Assembly (NCBI GenBank): GCA_030679145.1 | Contig: JAUXTU010000023.1 | Coordinates: 1-64,000 of the forward strand | Origin: Bacteroidota bacterium | GTDB lineage: Bacteria; Bacteroidota; Ignavibacteria; UBA10030; UBA8401 | Reading direction: 5' to 3' | DNA: 64,000 nt | Notes under the pieces: model-generated | Database searches by the model: none | Told to the model about the DNA's origin: nothing | Seen by the model: only the letters and a program-made list of their open reading frames with translations | Program-made: the position numbers and the translations under genes | In this document: one piece after another, positions 1,667-17,309 of the stretch | How the letters are laid out: each line of letters starts with the position of its first letter | Position numbering within the stretch: position 1 is the first letter of the stretch

Positions 1667-1875
1667 ACACACCCCTTTTTCCCCTCTCTCCAGCGCACAC
1701 CTGTGTGTCGAAACACTTCGGTGTGCAGGCATAAATCATCGCTCAGAGGGGAGTTGAACTTTTCACAATTCAAATTTGAAACTTGGCAATCCCCTCTGTG
1801 TGTGGGAAAGCACGTTGTTTGTGTCCCGCGCTTTTTGCGGGATGTGTAGTGGGGAGAGGGGAAAAAGGGGTGTGT
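1667..1875. repeat. Palindromic repeat element, copy A (MITE-like)
   Basis: A 22-nt perfect inverted repeat (1667-1688 and 1854-1875; right arm GAGAGGGGAAAAAGGGGTGT plus two bases) bounds this 209-nt unit. Inside it are a second dyad, CAGAGGGGA at 1744-1752 with its complement at 1790-1798, and a small hairpin around TCCCGC/GCGGGA near 1823-1842. The unit has no coding capacity. The outer and inner motifs recur in copies B and C around the DUF559 gene. Confidence 0.85.
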
Positions 1876-1888
1876 AAAGTCCAAAGCA

Positions 1889-1942
1889 ACACACCCCCCA
1901 GCCCCTCTCTCTCACGCCGCAGGCGTCACGCAGAGGGGAGTT
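1889..1942. repeat. Palindromic repeat element, half copy B
   Basis: This stretch begins with the outer motif ACACACCCC, continues with CCCCTCTCTCTC and a small hairpin (ACGCCGCAGGCGT), and ends with the inner motif CAGAGGGGAGTT. The right half found in copies A and C is absent. The DUF559 gene begins 11 nt later, so this half element forms the 5' flank of that gene, and its GGGGAG may act as a distant ribosome-binding site. Confidence 0.75.
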
Positions 1943-1953
1943 AAAAACACGAA

Positions 1954-2328
1954 ATGAAACGCAAAATAATTCCATACAATTTAAAATTAAAAGAAGTTGC
2001 TAGAGTACTTCGCAACAATAGCACGCTCGGCGAAATATTGCTCTGGAAACAATTACGCTACAAACAAATGCTTGGCTTTGATTTTCACAGACAAAAACCA
2101 CTAGATCAGTTCATCGTAGATTTTTATTGCAATGAGTTATCTCTTGCAATAGAAATTGATGGCAGTTCTCATACCACAGAAGAAGCTATTGAAAAAGATA
2201 AGGCTCGTCAAGAACGGTTAGAAGCATTTGGCGTAACATTTTTGCGTTTTACTGAAATGGAAGTGAGAAATTCAATGCGCACAGTCTTAACAATAATTGA
2301 AGATTGGATTACAACAAATACAAAATAA
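1954..2328 (+). CDS. DUF559 domain protein (Vsr-like PD-(D/E)XK endonuclease)
   Basis: This 124-residue protein matches the DUF559/MTES_1575 family in length and pattern. The N-terminus has the family-type sequence LRNNSTLGEILLWKQLR, followed by FDFHRQKPLDQFIVDFYC and LAIEIDGSSH, then GVTFLRFTEMEV. The D of VDFYC and the E and D of AIEIDG fit the PD-(D/E)XK nuclease core shared with Vsr mismatch endonucleases. The target is unknown. The gene lies exactly between repeat half-copy B (11 nt upstream) and full copy C (5 nt downstream), so it may be cargo or the driver of these repeats. The ribosome-binding site is poor; GGGGAG in the repeat is about 13 nt from the ATG. I am sure of the family but not of the function. 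Confidence 0.85.
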   Translation: MKRKIIPYNLKLKEVARVLRNNSTLGEILLWKQLRYKQMLGFDFHRQKPLDQFIVDFYCNELSLAIEIDGSSHTTEEAIEKDKARQERLEAFGVTFLRFTEMEVRNSMRTVLTIIEDWITTNTK

Positions 2329-2333
2329 AAGTA

Positions 2334-2473
2334 ACACACCCCGTACCCCTCTCTCTATCGCGCAAAGCCATAGCACAGAGGGGAGTTGAACTTTTTGTAA
2401 TTTAGGTTTTGTGAATTGCAATCCCCTCTGTGGGTTGGAAAGTGTGTTGGGGAGAGGGGAAAAAGGGGTGTGT
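2334..2473. repeat. Palindromic repeat element, copy C
   Basis: This 140-nt unit starts with ACACACCCC, carries the inner dyad CAGAGGGGAGTTGAAC / ATCCCCTCTG, and ends at 2452-2473 with the same 22-nt right arm as copy A. It is shorter than A because the hairpin between the inner and outer motifs is missing. It begins 5 nt after the DUF559 stop codon. Confidence 0.85.
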
Positions 2474-16133: not shown

Positions 16134-17309
16134 TTACTTCGTACTCTTGTGGTTGAAATCGTGATGATACACCGCATCTGCTAACAGCCAGCTTGCATCA
16201 CGGATCGCTTCTTGTGTTGAAAGCTCAACAGGAGAAATTTGCGTTAATGAAGCAAGACCAAGTTTTGATTTCAGTTCTTTGGTATTTCCTTGTATGCGTC
16301 CAACAAACGCATGAACAGGTTTATTCAATCGTTGTGCCCGCGCTGCAATTCCGGCAATTCCTTTTCCATACAATGTTTGTTCATCTAACACTCCTTCGGT
16401 TGTAATAACGCAATCGCACGAAGCAAGTTTTTCATCGAAATGAATTGCATTCAGGATAAAATCAATTCCGGATACGATCTCAGTATTACAAAATGCCATC
16501 AATCCAAAACCTAAACCGCCCGCAGCGCCGCTTCCATGAATATTGTGAAATTCTCTTCCAATTGTTTGTTCTACAACGTCACTGTAATTCTTCAATGCTG
16601 CTTCGAGATAGGGAAGCTGATCTTCGTTTGCCCCTTTTTGTCGGGCAAATGTGTATATTGCGCCCTGTTCTCCGAGTAAAATATTTTTCACATCACATAA
16701 AATTTTGACCCCCTCTCTAACTCTCCCCCTTAACAGGGGGAGAGGATCAGTTCCCTCCCCTGACAAGGGGAGGGTTAAGGAGGGGTCTATTCGTGAAAGT
16801 TTTATTAAATTAACAACATCTTCTTTTATTTCTTCATCATTCACATCGAATAATTTCCATCCCAATGCTCTCGCCATTCTTGCGCCGCCGTCATTGGTTG
16901 TTGTTCCTCCCAGTCCGATCCATATTTCTTTGCATTGTTTCTCATGTGCAGCAAGAATTAATTCTCCAATTCCACGTGTGGTTGCCATAGCAATTGTTTC
17001 CGCTGTTGGCGTTATATGCTGTAGTCCAATCGCTTCTGCAGATTCAATGATCGCGATAGATTCTCTCGTTATTCCGTATCGTGCTTTTACCCTTAGTGAG
17101 GGAATCGGACCAGTCACCTCCTGTTCATAGATTGTTCCGCCCAATGCATTCATTAAACAATCAAGCGTACCATTGCCGCCATCTGCAATTGGAGAAGAAA
17201 CAATTGTTGCTTCACGATATTTTCTTCGCAGAGTTTTTGATACTATTGCGGAGATTTTGACTGCGGAGAGAGAGCCTTTCATTGCATTTGGTGCGAGAAG
17301 GAAGTTCAT
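16134..17309 (-). CDS. Glycerate kinase (GlxK/GarK type) with in-frame repeat insertion
   Basis: Type-2 glycerate kinase phosphorylates D-glycerate to 2-phosphoglycerate. Family motifs are present: LLAPNAMKGSLSAVKIS at the N-terminus, IADGGNGTLDCLMNALGG, IESAEAIGLQ, ATTRGIGELI, IGLGGTTTNDGGARMARALGW, HGSGAAGGLGFGL and TTEGVLDEQTLYGKG. The length of 391 is slightly above the usual 370-380 because about 27 residues (around DPSLTLPLSGEGTDPLPLL) are inserted between LIKLSRI and KILCDVKN. These residues are encoded by a palindromic repeat of exactly 81 bp. The reading frame is intact, so the enzyme may still work with a surface loop, but this is untested. The gene is flanked by unrelated genes. 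Confidence 0.93.
   Translation of the reverse strand: MNFLLAPNAMKGSLSAVKISAIVSKTLRRKYREATIVSSPIADGGNGTLDCLMNALGGTIYEQEVTGPIPSLRVKARYGITRESIAIIESAEAIGLQHITPTAETIAMATTRGIGELILAAHEKQCKEIWIGLGGTTTNDGGARMARALGWKLFDVNDEEIKEDVVNLIKLSRIDPSLTLPLSGEGTDPLPLLRGRVREGVKILCDVKNILLGEQGAIYTFARQKGANEDQLPYLEAALKNYSDVVEQTIGREFHNIHGSGAAGGLGFGLMAFCNTEIVSGIDFILNAIHFDEKLASCDCVITTEGVLDEQTLYGKGIAGIAARAQRLNKPVHAFVGRIQGNTKELKSKLGLASLTQISPVELSTQEAIRDASWLLADAVYHHDFNHKSTK
16707..16787. repeat. Palindromic repeat inside the glycerate kinase gene
   Basis: The unit runs from GACCCCCTCTCTAACTCTCC to GGGTTAAGGAGGGGTC. The ends are imperfect inverted repeats (GACCCCTCCTTAACCCTCCC read on the minus strand), and two internal GGGGAG/CTCCCC dyads are present. 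Its length, 81 bp, is a multiple of three and it contains no stop codon in the gene's frame. The pyrimidine-rich CCCCTCTCT theme resembles copies A-C at 1.7-2.5 kb. Confidence 0.85.

Follow-up and report, generated by a model that had tools for sequence, protein, structure and literature searches.

DUF559 nuclease genes and intrastrand triplex repeats: a probable mobile element in Bacteroidota and many other phyla

Studying a 64,000-nt stretch of Bacteroidota DNA (hereafter the window) reveals a small DUF559 gene that is framed by repeats of the intrastrand triplex (TM/PIT) class, and the same company of gene and repeat recurs across many phyla. We consider it rather probable that both together form a mobile element, in which a Vsr-like nuclease recognises its own triplex ends and spreads gene-less copies of them. 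Intrastrand triplex repeats of bacteria have been known for some 25 years, and neither a cause nor an enzyme had been found for them. DUF559, a widespread family of unknown function which includes the E. coli gene ycjD beside a published TM, is now a candidate for this enzyme.

Repeats and nuclease gene of the window

Five half-units and the DUF559 gene are found within positions 1667-2473 of the window (Table 1). On the C-rich strand a half-unit reads ACACACCCC - 3 to 5 nt - CCCCTCT - loop - AGAGGGG. A and C each consist of halves paired tail to tail, and B is a lone half. The positions assigned in the first-pass annotation to repeats A (1667-1875), B and C (2334-2473) and to the open reading frame were confirmed. 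The nested palindromic repeats described there are indeed repeats; they are not plain palindromes, since a third strand accompanies each hairpin and makes it an intrastrand triplex motif. A, B and C also share one family as proposed, the basic unit of which is the half (head, spacer and hairpin) and not the whole of A or C. The gene-bearing unit had been drawn from the left end of B to the right end of C, which was wrong. Comparison with contig C91 of the same genome, with locus L120 and with other genera places its boundaries at about 1791-2384, so that it comprises the right half of A, the gene and the left half of C, B being an extra copy. L120, whose protein is 91% identical, has the order left end (LE), gene, right end (RE) without B, and at G000:C91:39605-39927 a truncated DUF559 gene stands beside a pair of the same kind, again without the B half. 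The repeat at this place and the one at G000:C73:19091-19321 stand next to sequence similar to the 3' end of the Eco57I-type methylase gene in the window.

Table 1. Positions of the half-units, the nuclease gene and a further gene-less pair in the window.
Feature	Position	Strand	Remarks
Repeat A, left half	1667..1752	-	third strand ACACACCCC, spacer TTTTT, stem CCCCTCT/AGAGGGG, 57-nt hairpin loop with a further small palindrome
Repeat A, right half	1790..1875	+	taken as LE of the gene-bearing unit; stem CCCCTCT/AGAGGGG, spacer AAAAA, third strand GGGGTGT(GT), 57-nt hairpin loop
Repeat B	1889..1942	-	single extra half, RE type
DUF559 gene	1954..2328	+	PF04480, Vsr-like PD-(D/E)XK nuclease (predicted), 124 aa, candidate mobility enzyme
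Repeat C, left half	2334..2386	-	taken as RE; third strand ACACACCCC, spacer GTA, stem CCCCTCT/AGAGGGG, loop of about 24 nt
Repeat C, right half	2422..2473	+	LE type, spacer AAAAA
Gene-less inverted pair of triplex units	16707..16787	.	80 nt, other sequence type, in-frame inside glycerate kinase

In total the window holds five copies of ACACACCCC, every one in this region (shuffles expect 0.10), and nine copies of AGAGGGGA, eight of which lie here (0.74 expected). The genome (3.83 Mb) has 23 exact ACACACCCC-N(0-10)-CCCCTCT sites, which are scattered, against 0 for the reversed-pattern control; the dispersed copies include single units, tail-to-tail pairs and head-to-head pairs that hold no gene. 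Rfam gave no family over the gathering score and no intron at the locus, lenient E-values yielding only chance microRNA models. The window copies are a derived member of the family: their hairpin loops are enlarged, B is present as an additional end, and each side of the gene has a full pair. These loops exceed the 1-6 nt of the ITxF definition, a range into which most other DUF559 loci fall.

Each repeat is composed of a pyrimidine-purine hairpin and a 'head' of 7 nt that fits the purine arm. On the G-rich strand this head runs antiparallel to the purine arm and has G opposite G and either A or T opposite A. The pairing of G on G and of A or T on A is that of the purine-motif reverse-Hoogsteen triads. 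Because both A and T occur in heads opposite A, the antiparallel purine motif is preferred, and a parallel pyrimidine-motif triplex was dropped. The triad rule (G.G-C, A/T.A-T) is satisfied by 5/5 half-units of the window. Judged by their sequences, these repeats would form triplexes.

The DUF559 reading frame matches PF04480 with an E-value of 3.3e-28 (98.2 bits, cut-off 20.6), and profile matches were also obtained to 3hrl (E 1.7e-24) and to the homing endonuclease I-Bth0305I (E 1.9e-5). With the AF2 model (pLDDT 93) Foldseek likewise finds 3hrl and I-Bth0305I (3r3p, E 2.8e-4), and further down the list Vsr (PDB 1vsr, E 0.04) and TnsA. The residues D56, E67, D69 and H73 are invariant in 50 sequences. 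YcjD was placed earlier in the PD-(D/E)XK superfamily (PMC1189080). By its modelled fold and its invariant acidic/His core DUF559 is predicted to be an active Vsr-like PD-(D/E)XK nuclease.

Association and co-divergence of DUF559 and the repeats

A search with the arm pattern in 296 genomes of the phylum detected it in 34, the reversed control being near nil. In the repeat-positive genomes 16 of 83 DUF559 matches have this repeat type within 1 kb, where 0.34 are expected. Eighty relative loci, chosen by protein search of species genomes alone, span Bacteroidota, Cyanobacteria, Planctomycetota, Brocadiales, Zixibacteria, Cloacimonadota, Paceibacterota and others, and in 74 of them a family head or hairpin lies no more than 300 nt away. 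The reading of the first-pass annotation would have fallen if DUF559 genes of related genomes showed no link to such repeats, or if the repeats were equally frequent around unrelated genes; neither proved to be the case. We found an exact 7-triad triplex motif within 250 nt at 62 of the 80 DUF559 loci versus 2 of 109 control ORFs in the same loci (Fisher p 1e-30, a guide only, since the loci are related). The exact motif was also present in 21/27, 14/21 and 5/6 further loci, many of them with other motif sequences; other DUF559 subfamilies carry motifs of their own sequence, which are found by searching with the triad rule and not with a fixed sequence. Motifs number about 3.4 per kb up to 250 nt from the DUF559 gene and mostly 0-0.2 per kb past 500 nt. 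In the genome under study five of six DUF559 loci have a motif by the strict rule, the exception being the window's own, with hairpin loops enlarged to about 23-57 nt. The layout across loci is regular, TTCCCCTCTTGAGAGGGGTTAGGGGTGTGT - gene - ACACACCCCTAACCCCTCTCAAGAGGGGAA, with the heads mostly facing the gene. The link between DUF559 and the repeats is general and reaches across many phyla.

These counts, together with the head-stem code and the in-frame copies inside genes described below, refute coincidence, in which the small gene would merely lie beside terminators or other common palindromes of intergenic DNA. In favour of coincidence, the hairpins are rich in G+C and found mostly between genes; we give it a practically negligible probability.

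At L104 (G099:C68) the DUF559 gene is flanked on both sides by a tandem array of head-to-head triplex pairs, like BIMEs. In L105-L107 and L110 the DUF559 frame extends into the downstream repeat and takes its C-terminal tail (DTPPTPSQEG) from it, and E. coli YcjD likewise terminates within a degenerate repeat.

Heads and stems vary together. The two main variants combine the head ACACACCCC with the stem arm AGAGGGG and the head ACCCACCCC with the stem arm GGAGGGG, and a mixture of head and stem between them was seen in 0 of 82 ends. A hairpin scan of all loci added about 10 further stem types, the heads of which obey the same rule. Head and stem match fully in 201 of 871 hairpins, compared to 70 (sd 6) when arms are permuted among hairpins; for the minor stem types alone the numbers are 62 and 10 (sd 2.8). 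At one orthologous intergenic site a compensatory change of both head and stem separates congeners.

The repeat also follows the protein. On a tree of 145 DUF559 proteins, which is short and leaves many forks open, the motif type needs 22 changes versus 48.6 when shuffled, and none of 200 shuffles was as low; for the type-2 motif at least four changes are forced by supported branches alone, head and stem both being altered each time. Each DUF559 clade has its own version of the repeat, and by this co-variation the ends are cognate to the nuclease.

Many genomes hold repeats without an adjacent DUF559 gene, and 2 of 30 repeat-positive genomes are without any DUF559 match. It could be argued that the repeats are REP-like and moved by another enzyme, RAYT or a host factor, with DUF559 as a passenger or hitch-hiker: the gene is absent from most dispersed copies, and the genome has seven matches to Y1_Tnp (RAYT-type, PF01797) genes. 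However, these matches lie elsewhere in the genome and no triplex motif was found near the four RAYT loci tested, so RAYT was rejected as the partner in this genome. Because, in addition, the repeat accompanies DUF559 over many phyla and its type tracks the DUF559 clade, we hold movement by another enzyme to be improbable.

Occupied and empty sites

Whole LE-DUF559-RE units are found in-frame inside large host genes, namely metH, a glycoside hydrolase of this genome, a methylmalonyl-CoA mutase-like gene, DNA methylases and hsdR, the gene names apart from metH being read from translations. The in-frame units are those of L071 (G236 metH), L004 (G000:C78 glycoside hydrolase), L076, L082, L234, L220 and L221, and their ends are translated as SPSPKEKG-like peptides. 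In metH the unit occupies the linker between the B12-binding_2 and B12-binding domains, and the host ORF reads straight through it; the heads point outward here rather than toward the gene. This linker is filled in G236 and G365 and empty in G347 of the same genus. The pattern of filled and empty linkers recurs in other genera, G132 retaining a remnant only.

Gene-less ends are found within genes as well. In hsdM a solo end lies in-frame in two genera and is absent in two other genomes; the corresponding peptide in the type I methylases of L205 and L251 is KSPLERGFRGV / KSPLEKGFRGV. The pair inside glycerate kinase (host ORF 16134-17309, minus strand) gives the insert peptide DPSLTLPLSGEGTDPLPLLRGRVREG, and seven relatives have a short unrelated loop instead. 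Copies similar to this pair are dispersed in this genome and in G200.

A stand-alone DUF559 unit of genus g72 is present in four species and absent in four. No clean single-unit insertion can be read from this locus, as neighbouring small ORFs turn over too. No target-site duplication was seen at the sites compared (the g72 locus, solo sites, metH and glycerate kinase), and at several sites the adjacent sequence differs as well, which fits insertion or segment replacement alike. Between L201 and its congeners L332-L335 an intergenic segment of about 115 nt is swapped whole: L201 has triplex repeats there, the congeners a TGTCATATCGAG...CGAAATGACA inverted repeat of unrelated sequence.

The presence of whole units at some sites and their absence from the same sites in close relatives argues that the units move. 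The nuclease gene with cognate repeats in autonomous and gene-less forms, as put forward in the first-pass annotation, is strongly supported by the association, by presence and absence at the genus level and by the co-divergence of protein and repeat.

Two further explanations bear on these sites. In a homing-type element the nuclease would cut the empty allele at a fixed site and repair would copy the unit in, the triplex ends being by-products or regulators. The nearest structures include I-Bth0305I, the metH linker is patchily occupied in several genera and units lie in several conserved genes, all of which suits homing. However, the ends co-vary with the protein, and gene-less ends are scattered over sites that have no relation to one another, with tens of them per genome in some families, which one-site homing does not yield. 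We regard it as rather unlikely. Alternatively the triplex motifs are hot spots of mutation or recombination, and DUF559 is a repair nuclease kept nearby or regulated by them, neither being mobile. DUF559 resembles the repair nuclease Vsr, and instability has been reported for the TM loci of E. coli (PMC4666352). This explanation appears highly improbable to us, because whole LE-gene-RE units occur in metH and other conserved genes and are absent in congeners, and because the heads mostly face the gene.

Working model and relation to known systems

We therefore favour the mobile element with nuclease-recognised triplex ends. In this element the nuclease gene lies between two ends, each a short pyrimidine/purine hairpin with a third strand that fits the purine arm. 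The nuclease would recognise the folded end while the strand is single, as in replication, repair or transformation, and would nick beside it. Repair of the break could then copy the end, or end, gene and end together, to a new place, and this copying would often replace local sequence instead of making a target duplication. We infer, in short, that the DUF559 protein cuts at the repeat ends and drives their movement, and that copying proceeds in about this way.

Holder et al. (2015) described 23 TMs in E. coli K-12, of two types (A/B) that pair as inverted repeats, and TMs are abundant in cyanobacteria and Neisseria (PMC4666352). The same study found no mobility function near TMs; the E. coli motif forms a triplex in vitro, and DMS footprinting saw no triplex in vivo (PMC4666352). 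In K-12 the DUF559 gene is ycjD (1351407-1351760), and TM no. 9 (1351204-1351239) lies at a distance of 168 bp from it. On the protein tree YcjD clusters weakly with DUF559 proteins that carry the E. coli motif type, and the sequence of this type, GGTGAGG, also occurs beside their genes. Many E. coli strains lack the ycjD region. In the fabI-sapF region (L340-L343) many strains have ycjD and the TM and others have regulator and efflux genes. Since strains without ycjD hold these genes at fabI, with no clean boundary, the region was rejected as an empty site. In strain H1 the ycjD region contains a copy of IS1.

The wider reading, to which we give about even weight for and against, is that a large unrecognised class of nuclease-driven mobile elements exists, with self-folding triplex ends read by the cognate DUF559. 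From this class the PIT/TM/BoxC repeats of E. coli, cyanobacteria, Neisseria and others would have arisen, and through it host proteins could acquire additional peptides in-frame. With the link of the repeats to DUF559, their origin and movement become testable with one small protein and 37-nt oligonucleotides. If the link is right, it also adds one of the few natural examples in which a DNA triplex is recognised as a substrate, and it explains how conserved enzymes may gain inserts in-frame. Our search of published papers gave none joining DUF559 with an inverted repeat, a triplex or transposition; DUF559 and palindromes appear together only in an unrelated context, and the repeat sequences were not found as text.

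Several known systems share features with these units. REP/REPIN-RAYT repeats are likewise short hairpins with a 5' head that form inverted pairs, with many gene-less and few enzyme-flanking copies. RAYT is an IS200/IS605-like Y1 HUH transposase, the enzyme here a PD-(D/E)XK nuclease; third-strand complementarity is found here and not in REP/RAYT, and RAYT does not adjoin the repeats. The analogy to RAYT/REP drawn in the first-pass annotation therefore holds for the layout, and with an enzyme akin to I-Bth0305I and Vsr the working model need not be that of REP/RAYT. I-Bth0305I (EDxHD, Vsr-like) is similar in fold and sequence profile, and perhaps in presence or absence at fixed sites in conserved genes: several genera share the metH linker, and many other sites are unrelated. 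Unlike it, the units here have no intron or intein, cognate triplex ends flank the gene and gene-less ends are dispersed. E. coli Vsr shares the Vsr-type fold, but the protein here is associated with repeats and has no link to a cytosine methylase. Rickettsia palindromic elements insert in-frame in protein genes, as some copies here do; to our knowledge they have no associated nuclease and no triplex code. Classical DDE insertion sequences and MITEs differ by their target-site duplication, which is missing at the sites compared.

The repeats belong to the PIT/TM class (E. coli BoxC). With PIT (Hoyne and Maher), TM and BoxC they share the class II order of pyrimidine arm, purine arm and third strand. 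Both have two spacer types, A and B in E. coli and 5 nt and 3 nt here, which combine to form inverted repeats, and both are dispersed and mostly intergenic. They differ in the hairpin loops, which have 1-6 nt in PIT/TM and about 23-57 nt in the window copies, and in that no gene is known for PIT/TM, whereas the repeats described here are tied to DUF559.
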